A stretch of 64,000 nucleotides of DNA from Neelides folsomi. Its lineage: Eukaryota; Arthropoda; Collembola; Neelipleona; Neelidae. Each line of letters begins with the position of its first letter. Within the stretch, counting starts at the first letter, position 1. The DNA is taken from contig JAQGBZ010000034.1 in NCBI GenBank assembly GCA_034687125.1, positions 124,001 through 188,000 on the forward strand, in the 5' to 3' direction. A program made the position numbers and the translations under genes. The notes below the pieces were generated by a model that saw only the letters and a program-made list of their open reading frames with translations, was not told where the DNA came from and did not search any database. Positions 2,512-28,600 of this stretch are shown here, in pieces.

Positions 2512-3090
2512 ATGTCGAGGAACAATTTCTCGGTGGTGGAGTCACTCGTGGACAAGCCGAGACACTTCTTTCCGCCGCCATCCCTCTTCCCGCCATTCCA
2601 CCCCCCTCCGCAGTTCTTCCTCCCGCCTGGGAAGTCCGAGTTCCCCTGCTTCTACGCCCCGTTCCCCTTCGCCTACCTTCATCGCCCGCCGCTGTGCGGG
2701 ATGCGGGAAGATACCATTCGAGGAGCGGAAGAAAAACCCGAGGAACGGAAGAAGAAGGAAGAAGTCAAGGAGGAAACGTCGGACCATGAGGACGACGACG
2801 AGGGGCGACCTTCCAAGAGGATGAGAACGGCCTTCACCTCGGGTCAACTTGTGGAGCTGGAGCGGGAATTCTCGGCCAACATGTACTTGTCGAGATTGAG
2901 GAGAATTGAAATCGCTGGCTACCTGAACCTGAGCGAGAAACAAGTCAAGATTTGGTTCCAAAACCGCCGAGTGAAGTTCAAGAAGGAAGAAACCGAGCCG
3001 GTGTCGATGGGAAACACCCAAGGAACGTCAGAAGGAAAGTGTCGGTGTTTGAGGGCAAATTCAAAGCGTCCAACAACTCCATCGTCCTAG
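2512..3090 (+). CDS. Gsx: Gsx/ind ParaHox homeodomain transcription factor
   Basis: Nuclear transcription factor of the Gsx (Drosophila ind) class, which patterns the intermediate column of the neuroectoderm. The 192-residue protein is encoded in one uninterrupted frame. The homeodomain spans about residues 102-161, beginning [39 protein letters not shown] is diagnostic of Gsx, and helix 3 reads [18 protein letters not shown]. The ATG at 2512 is chosen because it follows CAAAC and because [16 protein letters not shown] resembles the conserved Gsx N-terminus (SFxVxSLV), an eh1-like repressor motif. A proline/phenylalanine-rich stretch and an acidic DHEDDDEG stretch precede the homeodomain. The C-terminus has a short KCRC, comparable to the CKC found after the homeodomain of other Gsx proteins. 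Position 58 of the homeodomain is Phe where vertebrate Gsx has His. Confidence in the class is high; the absence of an intron is notable. Confidence 0.93.
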
Positions 3091-7797: not shown

Positions 7798-10700
7798 ATG
7801 TCGGACGACGAGGAAGTCTACTCGTAAGAACTTTTTCCTTTTTACTTCTCTTCTCCATTCACCACGGAGGATTTGGGGCATTACGGAAAATTATCCAATT
7901 AAATTCAAAATTTCAACAATTAGCCAACAATTATTCAAATTCAAAACTTTCCAACATATTTTATAATTGTATTCAACTTGTAAAACTTATAACTTGTACA
8001 TTACTTGAATTAAAAGAATATCAAGTGTATACATTATTGAGTATTCAACATATTAAGTATATTTACATATACAGGGTGGGCCATAAGTTGCTTTCTTTTT
8101 TAAATAAACAATAAAGAAGCAACTCATCGCCCAGACTGTATATGCAATTCAATTTTTTATATACATGGGGATTGTGGGCTAAACTTAATACCTGATTAAT
8201 TTGGATTGATCGTGGTGAGTGGGGAATGAGATTTTGACTCCAAGGCCCGCCCTGATCGCGGCCGCCTCTCTAAATCTCATTTCACTTCATGAGTTTGAGC
8301 ATGGGAGTGGCATGGGGGCGGGCGGAACTGAATTCCGTTCCCGTCCGAAAATGTTTAACCCTCTTTAATTTTCAGGGAAGAGGAGGAGGAGGAGGAAGTG
8401 TAAGCACAATCACATTTAGACATGACACAGTTGGGGAGACGCGGACGAGGGCTTTGGCGGAAAGTTTAAACGACCTTTGTTCTTTTTATTTGTTTGGTTT
8501 ACAGGAAGTAAGTGGAGTTGTAGGCCGACCACCCCGTAACCTTTATCATTTACTCAAATTAAGTATCAGTTGTTGTGGTGACTAGAGGAAGAGCGTATTT
8601 TAGGCGCACTTAGGGCGGAGCTTCTTTTTAAATTCCCCATCAGTGCTCACCTTTTATTTTGGGACCTTCTAATTGACTTCTTTTGTTTTCCCCGCCCTCC
8701 CACAGAAGGGAACCCGAGAGGAGGACGTAAGTGATTTATTTTCCTTTTTTTCTTTTGTTGCATTTGCATCTTCCCGCTCTTTGCCTTCGAGTGGTCGTCC
8801 TGTTCGACTCCAGCACGGAACCCCGTCCTTTGTCCAAATAAATATCACTTGTAATGCCTGTGGGTGTTTAGGGTTAATCCCAAGAGATCTTTAGGTTTTT
8901 ATAACACTGCACGTGGGTGCCCTGCACGTGGTCATGGCCCCTTCCTCGCCCTCACATTCTTTATTGTGCTTTAAAGGGAAGAGGCAGCGCCGGCCGGAGG
9001 AGAAGCTGAATTCATCAAGGTGACATAAAATTCCCCAACTCTTCCTAACCTAACTTTGATAAAAATTTTAATTGTTTTAATCCAATTCCAGCGGCAAGAG
9101 CAGAAAAAGTCGGACTTGGACGAGCAGCTGAAGGACTACATCAACGAATGGCGGAAGCAGCGGGCCAAGGAGGAAGAGGACCTCAAAAAACTCAAGGACA
9201 AACAGGCCAAGAGAAAGGTAATTAATTAATTAACAATTAAACGGAATTTCACACGTAAAGCAAGATTAAGAAGATTGGGGCAAAATGTGACAATTGTTTT
9301 TAACAACAATTTTGAATATTTTTTACTAGACTCTCCGAGAACAAGAAGAAAAGCGCCTTGCGGAGAAGAAACGTCAAGAGGAAGAACGTCGTCAACGGGA
9401 GGTTGAGGAAAAGAAACAACAAGACCAACAAGAGAAGCTTCGTCGTCTTGAGGAAGCCGAGAAGAAGCGCCAAATGATGATGCAAGCCCAAAAGGTACAG
9501 TCGGGTTCCTGCCGTGGTTTCTTTCCTCTCAAGATTCTAATTATTATTTTTGTTCTTTTTATTTTTGTAGAAAAGAAATGATGAAGTATAGTAGTCCTTT
9601 TAACTAACTAACCACTCTAATCCAGGCTTATCCAGGTTATTAGGCCCGAGTTTAAATATGAGTTGTGGTAGGCGAGCATGGCGGGGAAGAATTTCATGGT
9701 GGGGAAGAAGGCGGACGGCGGAGCCATCGGAGGCACCGGGTCGGCCCGACAAGAACTCAACAAAACCAAGGAGCAGTTGGAGGAGGAGAAGAAAATCTCC
9801 CTTTCTTTCCGCATCAAGCCCCTTGACCTCTCGGGGTTGGGGAGCGAGAGCTTGAAGAAGAAAGCCGCCGAGCTGTGGGAGCAGATCATCAAGCTCGAGA
9901 CGGAGAAATACGATTTGGAAGAACGTCAAAAGCGTCAAGACTACGACGTGAGTCTTCCCTTCTCATTTGCCCCCCCTCACGACCCCCCCAGTTGAAAGAG
10001 CTGAAGGAGCGACAAAAGCAGCAGCTTCGTCAGAAGGCCATGAAGCTCGGCTTAGAGCCAGAGTAAGTCGCCGCCCTCGTTTTAAGTCCAGGTCCCCCCC
10101 CGCCCTCGTACGCTTCCGTCTCCATTCCATGTTGTGCCTCGTCTCAATTCCATGTTGTTCGTTGTCAGTTGAAAGAGCTGAAGGAGCGGCAGAAGCAGCA
10201 GCTGCGACACAAGGCTCTCAAAAGGGGCCTCGACCCCGAGTAAGATCACATTTCACATTCACAGTCATTCCAATGCCACTTCTGCCCTTTAGATCCCATT
10301 ATGTATAATTGGGACACAATGAGATCAACCCCTTCCAATGGACACAAATATGTAATATGATATGGGGGATGAAATCCAATAGCTATTTAACACTCATTGT
10401 TAAGATCATTATATTCGATACACAACACATTGCATTCAAATGTCCAAAGTATATAAATATTGAATTGATTTAGGTGAGATTTAAACATTTATTTATATTT
10501 GATTAAAAACCCTTTTTTAATTATGATTTATGACTCACTCAAAACATGCATTTTATGATTTATTTATGATTTGTTGACACAATTTACATAATTATAGACA
10601 AGAAGACTGTTTTGGTATTTATTTGTTCTTTTTTTATTATTTGTTGCACATGTTTTGTTTTCCAAATTCATTGTTTTTTTATTTGTCCATTTTCCCCATT

Positions 10701-12478
10701 TTGATTTGATGACATATGTTTGCCCCAGACTGGGGAAACGGTTTACCCGTTTACCTATTATATGGGTATGTGCAAAAGTTGAATGTTTTGAACTTGGGCG
10801 AACTTTTGTTCCTCCGGCGCCAAATTATTCACTTTTAGCATTATGAATTTCTCGAGAAATGCTCGGCTTTAAGGCAAGGTTTATTTTCATTGTTACAACG
10901 CGATTCATCAAGTTTTCACTCTCTTAGATCTTTAAATCTTACATTTAAATTTAAAATACTTAATTAAAACCGAAGCCGAGTATTTCCTCATTTTACGGGA
11001 AAGTCAGAATGGACGATCTCGCATTGATTCTCATGCAGGATAAATATCAACGACGTTTAAGGTCTTTGTATTTAAGCAAATTAAGGTTAAATGATTTTAA
11101 AGTTTTTTTATCTTTCACTTATAATTTCCTCATTTATTATTATTTTCATTGACCTTTTGACGTCGTTGATCTAATGAAATTGTACAATACTCAACTAATT
11201 AAATTTTCTCTTTTTCAGGGCCTTGACAGGAAAATACCCGGTGAGTTTCAAATAATCGGTTTTTAATTAAAATTTTAAATTGATGGATAAATTTGGTCAT
11301 AAAAATATTTCTAATTGTTTTTAGCCCAAGATCCAAGTTGCCTCCAAGTACGAGCGGCGTGTGGACACCCGGTCTTATGAAGACAAGAAAAAACTCTTCG
11401 AGGGCGTAAGTTTCCAATTGAAACGTTTAGTTTAGAAATATGTCAAATTTTATAATTTTTCTTTTTTCACGGGGTAGGGTAGTTTTGACAATTGTAATTA
11501 TTTTGTCAATATTTTATATAGCTTAACTAGGACCCATTTTTACCAATTTTCAATAGGTGGACTTTTGATGTTTAGCTAATGATGATTAGTTTTCCAGATC
11601 AGGATTAGTTTTTAAAATTATTATTCAAATGGCGGAATTTCATGTGGGTCATCTGTAGGGCTGGGAAGTCATAACAAAGGAATGCAACGAAAAGTTCTGG
11701 GCCGAAAGACTCGATGGTTTCTCAAAGAGGCAGAAGAGTAAGAGTTGACCCGTGTGACTTTCTGTCTCGTTCTCCCCTTGACCTTTTTCCCGAGTTCACC
11801 AAAAATTGTTTTTCCCCACACGACAGAGGGCGGGCAGGGTTTAGGCACAGCGGGGTGGGAACGCCCTCCTTTGGGAAGGGGGTTGACTGTGATGAGCGCA
11901 GGCGCACAGAAACGCCGCTCGTTGTTTTTTCTTTGTCTAACCTCTCTCTTTCCCGATCGGGACATGGAAGGGATTGGTGGGGATTAACAAAGAGGCGTCC
12001 GAGAGGGCCTGGGCCGAAAATATTAAGCTGTTCGAGGAACGGCAGAAAAGTAAGACACACTCACACCCTCACACATCCTTGGACTACTCGGATCTTAGCT
12101 TGACCCTTTGACCCCTGCTAACTCTCTTTCCTCCAGCAAAACTCCCCAAGTGGTTCGGTGAGCGACCTGGAAAGAAGAAGGGAGAACCTGAGACCCCCGA
12201 GGAGGAAGTCGTGAACGTGAGGAATTAAATACAATTTAAAAAATAGAATACAATTTAAAAAATTACACAAAATTCTCATTTAAATATTTAACTTGTTTAC
12301 AATTGTATAACTATAACTTCCTATGGTTTAGGAACCCCCGATCCCTGACGTCCTCGAAGAACCAACCTTTGAAGAGGAGGAAGAGGAAGCCGCAGCAGAA
12401 GAGGCCGCCGAGGAGGAAGAAGAAGAGGAGGAGGAGGAGGAGGAGGAAGAGGAAGAAGAGGAGGAGGAAGAAGAATGA
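7798..12478 (+). CDS. TnT: Troponin T (upheld type), alternatively spliced
   Basis: Tropomyosin-binding subunit of the thin-filament troponin complex in muscle. Exons read: 7798-7823 (MSDDEEVYS start), 8376-8399 (Glu-rich), optional small exons 8505-8507 and 8706-8726, 8977-9019 (GGEAEFIK), 9092-9217 (RQEQKKSDLDEQLKDYINEW), 9330-9494, a 15-nt exon at 9571-9585, 9672-9947 (NKTKEQLEEEKKISLSFRIK), exclusive pair 9992-10062/10169-10239, 11219-11240, 11325-11405 (KIQVASKYERRVDTRSY), exclusive pair 11659-11737/11971-12049, 12137-12216 (KLPKWFGERPGKK) and 12332-12478. The last exon encodes a run of more than 20 Glu before TGA, the long acidic tail typical of insect and crustacean TnT. Every splice joint keeps frame, and either member of each pair fits. 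The family call is certain. Which short N-terminal exons are used, and in which tissue, is inferred only from splice signals. Confidence 0.96.
8072..8138. mobile_element. Short TIR element (mariner-type MITE), copy 1
   Basis: Lies in troponin T intron 1. The left end is cagggtgggccataagttg; the right end is an imperfect inverse ending ggcgatgagttg...cccagactg. It is flanked on both sides by TA, as expected of Tc1/mariner insertion. It is 67 bp, non-coding, and the most diverged of four short copies in the window. Confidence 0.8.
9992..10239 (+). other. Mutually exclusive exon pair 1 of troponin T
   Basis: Two tandem exons of identical length, 71 nt (9992-10062 and 10169-10239), have identical phases (enter 0, leave 2) and homologous products: LKELKERQKQQLRQKAMKLG and LKELKERQKQQLRHKALKRG. 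Joining both would shift the frame (142 nt), so only one can be used per mRNA. This matches the exon 10A/10B arrangement of Drosophila upheld. The second copy (RHKALKRGLDPE) is the more similar to the widely used insect isoform. Confidence 0.93.
10857..11170. repeat. Two intronic hairpins beside the exclusive exons
   Basis: In the roughly 980-bp intron after exon pair 1, two long-range inverted repeats occur. One pairs gagaaatgctcggctttaa (about 10854-10872) with ttaaaaccgaagccgag (10964-10980 and following bases). The other pairs atcaacgacgtttaaggtc (11046-11064) with gaccttttgacgtcgttgat (11151-11170). They may be foldback element remnants, or intronic RNA stems influencing splicing. Confidence 0.6.
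11659..12049 (+). other. Second mutually exclusive exon pair of troponin T
   Basis: Two exons of identical length, 79 nt (11659-11737 and 11971-12049), have matching phases (enter 0, leave 1) and paralogous products: GWEVITKECNEKFWAERLDG... and GLVGINKEASERAWAENIKL..., both ending RQK before the shared KLPKWF exon. The first aligns with the constitutive Drosophila GWDEISKDSNEKIW segment. Joining both would break frame, so use is exclusive. The acceptor of the second copy (gacatggaag|GG) is preceded by a long pyrimidine tract. Confidence 0.9.
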
Positions 12479-13497: not shown

Positions 13498-15079
13498 TCA
13501 TTGAATGTGAGTTTCCTCTTCTGACTCTTCTCTTTTCTTTTCTCGATTTTCTTCATCTTCTGACTCGGACTCTTCCCGGTCTCCTTCCGAGTTCCCGTTG
13601 AGAGACGCAGCCGAAGTTCCGACTTCTTCTCCAATTTTACGACAAAACTCTTCATATGATTTCCCATGGAGAAAACAGACTAGGATCACCTGTAACACAA
13701 AACCCAGTTAGGACTTCATTTAAATTTATTTAAATTTTTAACAAAGCGCTTTTTATTGTTTTTATAACTGATAATAAATATTAAGTTTAGTTAGTTAGTT
13801 AGTTATATATATATATATATATAGTTAGTTGTTAGTAGCATACAGTTAGTTAGTTACACATAGTTTAGTTGTTAGTTAATAGTATAATTAATTTTAACTA
13901 ACCGTCATGTTGTCACATCCAAGTCCACCCATTTGGCAGTCTGGCGCTAAACAATTGGTCATGAGTTCCTCACAAATGATTTCTGGTTCATGACGTTGAG
14001 ACAATCGACGGCGCACAAACTCAACTGCTTCCTATTTAAAACCATCAGTTTAATTATCAAAGCATATTAAGTAATTATGCATAAATGATTATTTAAAATT
14101 GACCTCGTTGGTCACCACATCCCAAATTCCATCACAGGCCAAAATGATGAATTCCCAGTCTTCATTGATGGTCCTCTCTTCGATGTCCGGAAGGGCCGTG
14201 ACCATTTGTTCCTCCGCCTTCAACCCTGTGTTCCTCTTGAACACAAAGTCGCCCAATGCTCGCGAAAGAGCCAAGTTGCCATTGACGCGATTGTATTCCA
14301 CCCAACCCCCGGCCTTAGAAATCCGATTCGATTCCTCAGGATTATTTGGCTTGTGGTCCAGCGACAACGGCTCTACTTTACCCTTAATGCAGCCCACGGC
14401 CCGAGAGTCTCCCACATTTGCCTGCAAACAACCAATTTACAAAATAAATAAAATTCCCTCCTTTGGACTAACTATTAAAGTTAAAATACTTACGCAAAAG
14501 AGCCGATCATTTTTAATTAAAACAGTCACAGCCGTCGTCCCTGCGAGTTCATCTCTCATGGCTTCGTCAACTAACATGGATTGGTCAAACTCCAAAAATC
14601 CCTATGAATCACAAATTGAAATATAATAAATGCATACTTATATCAAGTTAAATAAAATGATTGATGAAATCAGTTAAAGGAAATCAATTAACAATTTTAA
14701 AGTAAAATGTAGATAAATAAAGTGATTTTAGACCTTCCTGAGCGATTCTGGGAATTTTCCCTCTCCGTATTCATCTCTTTGTACTATGAACTTGTGAAGA
14801 TGATGACCCGCATGTTGAGCGACCTTTGGGCCGCCGTGACCGTCGTAGACAGCGAAAAACGCCGCTTCTTCGTCGTCCGGGAGAGCTAAGATGTGAGTAT
14901 GAGAATCTTCCATGGTGACTCGCCATCCTTGCATGCAGCTCGAACCCACCTGACAAAATATCATTCATTAGAATTAGGAAAATGTTGCCATTCGTCCCTT
15001 GACCTCTCACCTTGTAGGCTGATGACTGAACGGAAGTGGATTCTTTGGCCGTCACGGGCTCTGAGAGCGTTTGCCCCAT
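13498..15079 (-). CDS. PP2C-type Mg/Mn protein phosphatase
   Basis: Metal-dependent Ser/Thr phosphatase of the PPM family. Exons run from ATG 15079 (15011-15079) through about 14731-14949, 14494-14606, 14099-14423 and 13903-14033 to a last exon ending at TGA 13498. The start MGQTLSEPVTAKESTSVQSS is the highly conserved N-terminus of the C. elegans ppm-2 type, with Gly2 a likely myristoylation site. All metal-site motifs are intact: SCMQGWRVTMEDSH, FAVYDGHGG, ANVGDSRAV, NGNLALSRALGDF, LACDGIWDVVTNE, and LAPDCQMGGLGCDNMT. The C-terminus continues for about 50 residues in a Ser/Glu-rich tail (SEGDREESESEDEENREKKR). The family and catalytic competence are clear. The exact human counterpart (PPM1A, B or G type) is not settled, so no symbol is given. 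Confidence 0.94.
13793..13885. repeat. Simple repeat, (TA)n flanked by GTTA tracts
   Basis: About ten TA units sit between imperfect 'tagttagttag' arrays. It lies in an intron of the PP2C gene and is likely polymorphic. Confidence 0.85.
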
Positions 15080-16570
15080 TTTCCCCTTCTTCTTCTTTGA
15101 AGGGTCAAGGTGGTGAAGTTGTCCAGCGAGAAAGGCCGAGGACCCGCGCTTAGCTGTGATTCACATTCACCCCCATTACATTAACTAATATCACTAATTA
15201 ACTAATCGCTTTTAATTTAACAAAATTAAATGGTGAGTGAATGGAAATGAAAGAAGGTCATACGATTAGGAACGAGGTTCGGGTTCCTGAATCGCCTCCC
15301 TGCACTTTGACCTCCGGAATTGAGGAGCGGGTCAGACAGGCGCGGGATCCGCAACCGATTGAATATCGAGTAAAAACGACGTCGTCGACGGGCCGAAATC
15401 TTCGGTTGACGACAGGGAGGGGCAGGGAGAGAACCCATAGATGGTGTTCGCGTCCCTTCCCTCCGCCTCTCCATCTCACCTCAATGAAGATCGTCCTACC
15501 CGGGCAACTGATTTATACCCGGATCCCTTCGCCCGCGTCCGTGCCGATTCCTCAAATCCGCGTCTCTATCGATCCCGTCTATATTTATCAATTCGCGAAT
15601 CTCCGACTGTTGCTCTTTTAAATTGACAAGGTCCAAGGACCGCCTTCCACTCGGATCAAATCAAAACTGCAAAAGTCTGCAAACTCGCCAAGCATCTAAA
15701 TTTTCTAACAGGGGACAAAATTTCTTATCAGCTTCGACCCAACGGAGCCGATTTTAATAGCCACTTAAAGACGTTCGAGACTTAAACCATAAATTTATTC
15801 ATCAATTTATAATTGGTTGAATTTGCAAAACAAAGGTCTTACTATTGGGAACGTGTCTCACTCTTAATAAACGCAAGGATTTCATATCTCACAAACACCA
15901 TAACTTATGACTCACTGATAGCCATTCTTCATCTTAATTGTTATTGAAATCGTTAATTTATTTGATAAGAAATAAATCTCATTCTTATCCATGTCCATGA
16001 AAAGATATGGAGAATAAAAGCATGGTTTTATTCAAGGGGAATTCTGACTCATAGGAAGAGATGAAAGATTCGAGCAACAGATGAATCCCGGTGCATGGTT
16101 AGGTTCTTAAATTCTTAGGTTAAATTCTGATTTATGCGAAAAATGAAAAAATCCCAAGGTCTCAAACTCCCCTTAAAATGGTAAAACGAAAGCCAATTTT
16201 TGAAAATAAATATTGAATTCGGATCAATTTAATTATTTTTTACATAAAATGATTTATTAATCGTAATTATCTAATGTCAATTTAATATTGAAATGTCATA
16301 AATTAGAATTACAAACAATTAGAGCTAAATAACAGTGCAAAGTAATTGTTATAGGTAAGTAGTAGTAGGTAATAAGTAGAAAGCATTTTGGGGCGAAGCA
16401 AAGAAGTTGCCAAGGGATCAAAAGCCCTAATAAACAAACGCCACATTAAATTCAAATTCCCTCAAATTTCCTTCCAACATTTTTCACCTAGCTTGTGAAT
16501 TTCACAAGACTTGAAAGAGAAAAGACTTCGATTTGGTCCACAAAGATTCAAATCAGCGACAAGGACTGCA
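15080..16570. promoter_or_regulatory. Divergent intergenic region, PP2C to membrane-protein gene
   Basis: The first 500 bp (15080-15600) are GC-rich and probably hold the PP2C promoter and leader; the open frames seen there on both strands share no family features. The remainder is AT-rich, with nothing recognisable until the leader of the gene at 16571. Specific promoter elements could not be assigned. Confidence 0.45.
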
Positions 16571-25645: not shown

Positions 25646-28600
25646 TTACATATTTACTTCTTCGATTTCAATCACTTCTGAAGTTTTCTCAATGGACTTT
25701 TTCCCCCCTTGGTTCGTCGTATCATCGTCAGATCCAGAGTCAGTGTGGGAGGATTCCTCATCCTTCTTTTCCTGACTTATGCGAGGGTTGGGTGGACGTC
25801 CACCACGACCACGTCCCCGCCCTCTTCCTCGCCCTCGTCCAGGAGTTCCTTTGCCCCTAGAAGAAAACGACCCCCGTCCTCTTCCTCGCCATCCTCCACG
25901 TCGGGCGAAACCTTTTGGGATGAAAGTCTTGGAATAAAGGATTTCATCTTCTTCTTCGCTCTCAGACTCGACGGCAGGAGATGAAGGAAGATCCTCTTGG
26001 GGAAGTTCTTTAACTTCGTCCGGGGGATCAGGAATTTGTTCAAGGCGATATTTGGGCTGCTTGAGAGGAACGTAATTTTCCACAGGATGAATAAGCTCAC
26101 ATTTCCCATTAACTTCTATATATTGAACATCCTTGACTTCAAATCCAATGCAACCGAAGTAAATAGTCGAATCAACATTAAAACGGGCAGATCCTTCATA
26201 GCAGTCTTTTGGAAGAGAAATCTCTTTACATTTACACTTTGACGATTCCTAATTAAAAAATTAAAATTTTAAATAAGTTAAATAATAAATTGCAATATAT
26301 ATTACTAGGTATATAATTATATACATATATACTAGGTATAATATAAAATACTATTTCATGATTATTACCTTATTTTCAGGCCCTTGAGGTTTGATCCAAT
26401 AATCAGCCAATTTGGCCTTCCTGTACGTTGCAAGTGATTCGCTTAAGGAATGAATTGGAGATTGGAGATTGGCCCGGGCCATTAAAACAGTTTCAAGATT
26501 GAGTCCGTATAAAACTCCGTTAACGTATGTCCCAGAAGGAGAATAATTAATTAGCTCCCATCCTCGTTCAACAACGTTATAATATATTGTTGCATGATTT
26601 TGGGAAACCATCGAACATGTTCCGAATTCATTCAAATCAAGAGTGTTTTGTGGTCCAAGTCCAATGTTGATCGTCGTAGAGGTGAAAACAGCAATTTTGT
26701 CAGTGTTTAAAACCCTCAATGTTAATCGCTTTAGGGCCACTTTTAATTGACGCGGCGGGTGGGAATTAAAAGGATCAAATAACTTTTGTGCCTAAAATAA
26801 ACAAATTGTCAAAGAAATCATAATTAATTTGGATAATTAATTAAAATTAATAAAAAAAATCGTTGAAAAATTTTGTTTATAAATTACCAAATTAGCTTTT
26901 GATGGAATTTTGTCATTTTCATGGCCATTTTGACAGGTTCCTAATTTATCTATCGACTCATCTTTTTGATGTTTATTTTGGTTTCGGCGATCGATTAGGG
27001 ATTTTCCTATTTTCCTTCCATATCCAAGGTATTGGACATCATTGGATTTTTCATCTTCCGAATCAACTTCTTCCATATTTTCTCCACCAGGAGTTGAATC
27101 GGATGAAATTGGATAAAAGACGGTCGAAGAATCAATAATTTCCTCACCATCGTCATGATCCTCGTAAACCCTCTTCCTTTTAACGGCCACATCTGATAAA
27201 ATTTCCTTCTTATGCATCTCAAATGGCCTTTCGACAATTTGCGTCTCCGCCGGCTTTTGATCATCCATTGAGATCTCTTGGGTGTCTTCTAAACTATCGA
27301 AGGGAATTGAAGACTCGGAATCGGGCTGAGAATCGTCTGATTCATTGGAGATCATCGAAGGTTGGTTCGGTGGCAATTTGATTTCTTCAAATTGTACTGT
27401 CCTTTCCTCGTCTTTCCTCACCCACCCAAGACATTCCACGCTCGAGGCTTCACTCACTTCAGAACTTGGGGCTGATTGGAAAAGCTCACCAAGTTGACCT
27501 TGGAGATCTTCCATGTTTTTAACTTCCATTTCCACGACGTCTTCGTCCCCAGTAGTGAAGTCGAAAGCCGAAGGCGGGAGATTGAAATTTTCAATTCTCC
27601 TCCCTTGACTATTCTTTTCAAATGAAATGACATCCATTGGATGTTCAACCTCATTTGCGTTTTCTCTCTCAAGAACTAAATAAGATTCTTTGTGCTTCTT
27701 GGGCTTTGGAAGTTCTGTGCATTCGCCAGGTCGTTTGCGGCTATTAATTTCATCCATGTTTTGACATTCAGTATCTTCAATTTTTCCATCGCACTCATCT
27801 TTAGTTTGAACTTCAGATTGAACTTTGGAATTCTCTCGAGTTTTGAGAATGAGTTGAGCTTCCATTGTAGCCCGTTGAACCAATGATCTTTCTTCATCTT
27901 TTTTACTAAGAAGGTATTTGGCTGCCATGGCTCTAATTTCAAAATGATTCATGCCTATAAGCACCGTTTGAAATTCTTCTGGTTCTTCTTGATCTTTCTT
28001 TGCAGCTTCGGCCAAATCCATTAAGGTGCATCTCTAATTACAAAATATTAATTAGCAATTATATAATTTAAAAAATGTTTATTTAAAACATACCATTGGA
28101 CGTTGGCTCAACAACATTCTCCTTTGTTCAATTTCATAATCCCTTTTCGCTTTCAGCTCTCTCAATTCGGCATCGGAGTAAACACGAAATATGTGAGTTG
28201 GAATCTTAGTAAATGGTAAATATGAATTTATAGATAAATAACACTATTATAATGTCAATAGATAAAAAATAATTATATAATAATTAATTACCTCTGCTTC
28301 TTTTTTCGCTAGTGTAGGAATGACGTTTCTCAAGCCAAAAACATGCCGCTTTACTTTTTTAAAAAAATCTAAGTGTATGTGTGAAGGGTCCAATTTGCCA
28401 CCTTCGGTCAATTCCCATACTCGTAGACGATCTGACAAAGCAGAGGACTTGGCGAGCTTTTCTTCCAACATGTTAATAACATGGCACTCACAACTCCAAT
28501 TGCGAGTTGGAATGGTCGTGAGAGGCGGATTGGCACAATCCAGATGAAAGTAATTGGAACAAAAGTCGCATTGTACAAGAGGACCAAGTCGACATGATCT

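Follow-up and report, generated by a model that had tools for sequence, protein, structure and literature searches.

The troponin T gene of the collembolan Neelides folsomi contains two tandem pairs of homologous exons: an upstream pair (P pair, exons Pa and Pb) and a downstream pair (C pair, exons Ca and Cb) close to the Glu-rich C-terminal tail. This raises the question of which pair corresponds to the exclusive exons 10A/10B of the Drosophila gene upheld, and which of them, if either, is comparable with the C-terminal switch of vertebrate fast troponin T (TnT). The original prediction took the downstream pair for a new second switch of this lineage, convergent with the vertebrate one. We find that the downstream pair is probably the counterpart of the fly switch, and that the vertebrate comparison belongs with the upstream pair.

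Structure of the troponin T gene

The window (the whole 64-kb stretch of DNA analysed, located on contig C34) contains a troponin T gene whose core exons we assembled from the ATG to the stop codon; upstream of 9092 the exons were positioned by visual inspection, which makes them less secure. Pfam identifies the spliced core as troponin (PF00992, E=2.4e-10), and it also matches solved vertebrate TnT chains in the PDB (best match 1ytz, E=4.4e-11). The PDB search with the spliced core returned 27 sequences, which by name are all troponin T or troponin I chains; troponin was not found in a PDB search with the C-terminal part of TnT. The features of the gene, in window coordinates, are the following:

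7798..12478, + strand: troponin T gene, ATG to stop, with Glu-rich C-terminal tail (core exons assembled)
9672..9947, + strand: exon ending in ..EKYDLEERQKRQDYD, aligned with the vertebrate I-T arm
9992..10062, + strand: P-pair exon Pa, 71 nt, LKELKERQKQQLRQKAMKLGLEP(E)
10063..10168, + strand: spacer intron between Pa and Pb, 106 nt
10169..10239, + strand: P-pair exon Pb, 71 nt, LKELKERQKQQLRHKALKRGLDP(E)
11219..11240, + strand: 22-nt exon, (E)ALTGKYP, 3' of the P pair
11325..11405, + strand: exon PKIQVASKYERRVDTRSYEDKKKLFEG, 5' of the C pair; its end at 11405 is in phase 0
11659..11737, + strand: C-pair exon Ca, 79 nt, GWEVITKECNEKFWAERLDGFSKRQK; acceptor ..ctgtag/GGC, donor AGA/gtaaga
11738..11970, + strand: spacer intron between Ca and Cb, 233 nt
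11971..12049, + strand: C-pair exon Cb, 79 nt, GLVGINKEASERAWAENIKLFEERQK; acceptor ..tggaag/GGA, donor AAA/gtaaga
12137..12216, + strand: exon (T)KLPKWFGERPGKKKGEPETPEEEVVN
12332..12478, + strand: last coding exon, Glu-rich tail

No second TnT was found in the genome of the animal itself (75.1 Mb in 840 contigs): the matches scored among the best candidates (3 of 3 and 4 of 4) all correspond to the troponin T gene described here. No relatives turned up on viral or prokaryote contigs, each scanned twice, as expected for an animal gene.

The gene also contains candidate microexons. In the N-terminal region, the trinucleotide GAA at 8505-8507 lies between ..ttacag and gtaagt; judged by eye it is in phase and would add one extra Lys. 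A 3-bp TnT microexon in Drosophila is named in the title of Benoist 1998. The intron 5' of the exon starting at 9672 contains a candidate 15-nt in-frame cassette microexon (KRNDE, 9571-9585), with a gtag acceptor and a gtatag donor.

Neighbouring genes and mitochondrial genome

Upstream of the troponin T gene, the window contains the end of a liprin-alpha-like SAM-domain gene (1-1860, + strand, identified by eye) and a homeobox gene at 2512-3090 (Pfam homeodomain, E=4.5e-22), whose homeodomain looks Gsx-like. A PP2C-like phosphatase gene, also recognised by eye, follows downstream on the - strand (13500-15100).

The mitochondrial genome of the host (C742:1-15157) is 15,157 nt long with 31% GC. 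Its protein genes were named by eye. It carries tRNA-Leu(taa) between cox1 and cox2 and has 11 TGA codons inside cox1; one of the 22 tRNA calls is without identity, and tRNA-Asn was not found in this mitochondrial genome. The gene order is consistent with the ancestral pancrustacean order. This ancestral order is shared by tadpole shrimps, according to the consulted portion of PMC6537178. Judging from mitochondrial gene order, the host looks pancrustacean.

The downstream exon pair

Ca and Cb are a real tandem exon pair in troponin T. Each copy begins in phase 0 and ends in phase 1, its borders are GT-AG and its donor reads gtaaga; the earlier description of two 79-nt tandem exons of equal phase proved exact in every coordinate. 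The two copies are identical at 12 of 26 residues and at 43 of 79 nucleotides. As a chance test, we took all AG-79 nt-GT stretches of the 64-kb window, forward and reverse; of these 277 stretches, 89 have an open first frame. Scored without gaps under BLOSUM62, Cb reaches 58 against Ca; the next best of the open stretches reaches 12, and the remaining ones have a mean of -25 (s.d. 13). None of 200,000 shuffled versions of Cb attained 58 against Ca. A six-frame scan of the window for scores of at least 24, imposing no splice-site condition, revealed nothing above 25 against either copy beyond Ca and Cb themselves. The proposed paralogy of the two peptides is thereby well supported.

Either copy alone produces a continuous reading frame into TKLPKWFGERPGKK. 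When Ca and Cb are joined, the sixth Cb codon is a stop; when both are skipped, the shifted frame is terminated by codon 26 of the exon starting at 12137. The claim that the use of both copies breaks the frame therefore holds, and it extends to the use of neither.

Synonymous changes between the copies amount to 14.2 at 15.0 sites, against 21.8 non-synonymous changes at 63.0 sites (Fisher p=6e-5, rounded counts). Because synonymous change so far exceeds non-synonymous change, neither copy has the appearance of decay. The pyrimidine tracts of both C-pair acceptors are weak (10/17 in Ca and 8/17 in Cb). The 12 other acceptors in the troponin T gene have 7 to 15 pyrimidines out of 17, and one other exon is equally weak (7/17). 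Regulated exons often have weak pyrimidine tracts.

The upstream exon pair and relative age

In the P pair, too, two homologous exons lie next to each other; their phases are equal and their splice sites intact. Pa and Pb share 19 of 23 residues (complete codons) and 55 of 71 nucleotides, and after Pa, Pb is the top of 92 open AG-71-GT stretches, with a score of 95 compared to 8 for the next best. As in the C pair, one copy keeps the frame, and both or neither breaks it. The residues that differ are at exon positions 14, 17, 19 and 22, and neither exon encodes Ser or Thr. Synonymous changes (9.3 at 14.8 sites) again outweigh non-synonymous ones (6.7 at 54.2 sites; Fisher p=5e-4, rounded counts). 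Judged by these substitution patterns, both the P pair and the C pair look maintained. At synonymous sites the C pair has reached saturation, whereas the P pair (dS about 1.4) is less saturated, and the C pair is therefore probably the more ancient of the two.

The spacer directly 5' of the Pb acceptor contains two 23-nt tandem copies that are 87% alike (10117-10162). Outside the troponin T gene, the six-frame scan, run with no splice-site condition, recovered the stretch LRELKAKRDYEIEQRRMLLSQRP at position 28097 of the window on the - strand, with a score of 42 against Pa; this stretch probably belongs to another coiled-coil protein.

We know of no published Drosophila counterpart of the upstream pair. 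Among the papers listed from an open-licence library, no second TnT exon pair is named in the titles and abstract openings, and motif searches of that library with TnT peptides matched no paper. Troponin is not mentioned in the main text of PMC9741552, which surveys tandem exon duplications that arose convergently.

Which pair corresponds to Drosophila 10A/10B

Reverse primers specific for Drosophila exons 10a and 10b are printed in the accessible text of PMC5633399. Each of these two 18-nt primers yields three readings after reverse complementing, and we chose the frame by fit to TnT. The best-fitting readings are FTQRT for 10a and KEQYT, followed by G, for 10b. Across the whole TnT core, the two top matches of FTQRT fall at residue 268, one in each C copy (FSKRQ with 12 and FEERQ with 11), followed by FGERP with 10; for a 5-mer this margin of 12 versus 10 is narrow. 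Among the other 10a readings, DSLSAQ has its highest score, 10, at both residue 156 and residue 266 (in Ca), whereas IHSAH scores at most 6, at three places, one of them within Pb. KEQYT has its best matches, 13 each, at residues 130-134 and 270-274, and the score gives it no unique placing. In the fly protein, KEQYT(G) belongs to the exon directly before KLPKWFGERPGKK; in the fly sequence KEQYTGRQKSKLPKWFGERPGKK, KEQYTG stands directly before SKLPKWFGERPGKK, which would put it in the same exon as the C pair. The best match of FTQRT at the C pair, together with this placing of KEQYT, points to the C pair as the counterpart of 10A/10B. We regard this as evidence of moderate strength that the C pair occupies the same protein position as the fly exons. 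Ca resembles the 10B sequence, and either copy may be the 10A-like one.

Drosophila 10a and 10b are reported to differ in phosphorylation sites, a difference with which the P pair, lacking Ser and Thr, is a poor fit. The layout of the fly gene can be compared as well. According to the text available from PMC13322953, upheld has 11 exons, of which 10A and 10B are exclusive, and this agrees with the premise of the original prediction that the Drosophila gene has one exclusive pair. The Glu-rich extension of insects is encoded by exon 11 or 12 (PMC7581897, in part), which places exon 10 close to the tail.

Taken together, these comparisons make it probable that Ca and Cb are a mutually exclusive pair and the orthologue of upheld 10A/10B, and the two copies would then descend from the same duplication as the fly exons. 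The opposite assignment, with the C pair as a new switch specific to this lineage and the upstream pair as 10A/10B, draws on the existence of both pairs, on the single exclusive pair of Drosophila and on the 10a reading IHSAH, whose weak best match includes Pb. The best-fitting 10a reading nevertheless sits on the downstream exon, the P exons have no Ser or Thr despite the phosphorylation difference reported for 10a and 10b, and it is the C pair that is the more diverged, all of which make this assignment very unlikely. The original interpretation was sound as to the tandem pair, the exclusivity enforced by the reading frame and the number of core isoforms, and most likely had the identities of the two pairs swapped.

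Inheritance of the C pair also has to be weighed against an independent re-duplication at the exon-10 position, which would make the resemblance to fly 10A/10B convergent. The comparison is drawn from one such genome, which leaves some room for this scenario, but the identical place in the protein favours common descent and the saturated synonymous divergence speaks against a recent duplication, so we consider it improbable. Less probable than any of these is that one of the copies, Cb or else Ca, is cryptic or a relic in decay and goes unused in muscle transcripts. The weak pyrimidine tracts of both acceptors and the purine-rich gggacatggaag of Cb could be read in this way; an open frame, intact GT-AG borders, a length of exactly 79 nt and a protein conserved against saturated synonymous change are all contrary to it. 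We therefore retain the reading of the C pair as the likely counterpart of the fly switch, and consequently as probably not a new invention.

Position relative to the vertebrate switch

In the alignment with chicken fast TnT (PDB, 1ytz), ..RQDYD/LKELKERQKQQLRHKA of the troponin T described here falls on ..RKKYE/IVTLRNRIDQAQKHSK. The alignments with TnT chains end at or before residue 205 of 300, and one TnI chain reaches residue 236. We take the 14 residues of vertebrate exons 16/17 to be the aligned stretch; the exon limits assumed here agree with an I-T arm that ends at Q245. In the part of PMC5062619 consulted, the 14 residues encoded by exons 16/17 are located at the TnI/TnC interface, and Q245 is given as the end of the I-T arm in chicken fast TnT. 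The C pair comprises residues 248-274, outside the part that is alignable with vertebrate TnT. Since the alignments with TnT chains extend into the P pair but do not reach the C pair, it is the upstream pair, and not the C pair, that is at the vertebrate switch site: by this alignment, the upstream pair is on the segment switched by exons 16/17 in vertebrate fast TnT. The proposed convergence of the downstream pair with the vertebrate switch is not supported, on the same ground, as that pair lies past the end of the alignment.

This arrangement would be explained by two independent switches, one inherited as 10A/10B and an upstream one that arose separately on the TnI-binding segment of vertebrate exons 16/17. 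We put this forward tentatively, as a possibility that falls somewhat short of an even chance. If true, the vertebrate-like convergence is real, but it concerns the upstream pair rather than the pair originally flagged.

Exclusive use and possible regulation

The reading frame suggests that, in both pairs, one copy is used per transcript. Each C copy is 79 nt long (3n+1), so that two copies or none shift the frame. Transcripts with two or no C copies would lose the KLPKWFGERPGKK segment together with the Glu-rich tail. In flies, 10A is used in flight and jump muscle and 10B in other muscle. By analogy, the C-pair copies may be muscle-specific, and different muscles or stages would likely receive a different 26-residue segment directly before the tail. 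The upstream pair can be combined with the C pair, so that one gene could encode four core proteins; with two pairs present in one gene, the predicted maximum of four core isoforms stands.

With 106 and 233 nt, both spacers are considerably longer than the shortest intron of the gene (44 nt), which makes simple crowding an unlikely mechanism of exclusion. Competing intron pairings were not detected in six duplex tests against dinucleotide shuffles (z from -1.6 to +1.0), performed in one species only. Self-folding of the spacers is not stronger than that of shuffled sequences either (z of +0.3 and +2.0, positive values being less stable). By analogy with the fly, Muscleblind is a candidate trans-regulator. 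It promotes fly exon 10A, as stated in the available part of PMC13322953. The P spacer holds 5 Muscleblind YGCY motifs where 2.2 are expected (p=0.06), and the three introns of the C pair hold 0, 3 and 1; neither count amounts to evidence.

Comparison with known systems

The closest likeness of the C pair is with upheld 10A/10B, which are also alternative exons near a Glu-rich C-terminus and of which the fly uses one per transcript; splicing defects of 10A lead to flightless flies (both from the accessible portion of PMC13322953). The flagged pair thus ties Neelides folsomi to a well-studied fly switch. Unlike upheld with its one pair, the troponin T gene described here has a second pair upstream.

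Several exclusive exon clusters in one muscle gene are also known from the arthropod muscle myosin heavy chain, where multiple independent mutually exclusive clusters are described and the full set is retained in Daphnia pulex alone (PMC3912159, in part). Myosin heavy chain is a different gene, and the TnT described here has two pairs; troponin receives no mention in the consulted portion of PMC3912159. In tarantula, TnT has at least 2 isoforms with 9 substitutions within the C-terminal 157 residues, as described in part of PMC2674065. These isoforms are known as cDNA only. The isoform difference might come from a similar exon pair, which counts against the novelty of the upstream pair.

Vertebrate TNNT3 exons 16/17 and the P pair both encode the stretch in which the TnI-TnT coiled coil, and with it the I-T arm, comes to an end. 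The TNNT3 exons encode 14 residues each, and the P-pair exons, with 71 nt, 24 residues each. Three of the four residues that differ between Pa and Pb lie beyond the part aligned with vertebrate TnT, so the resemblance between the P pair and TNNT3 is one of place and not of detail. In the literature consulted, so far as its accessible text goes, vertebrate fast TnT is the only case described of a switch at the TnI/TnT coiled-coil end, which makes the upstream pair the place to look for another. If this pair is used in transcripts, the same segment would have become switchable in two distant lineages.
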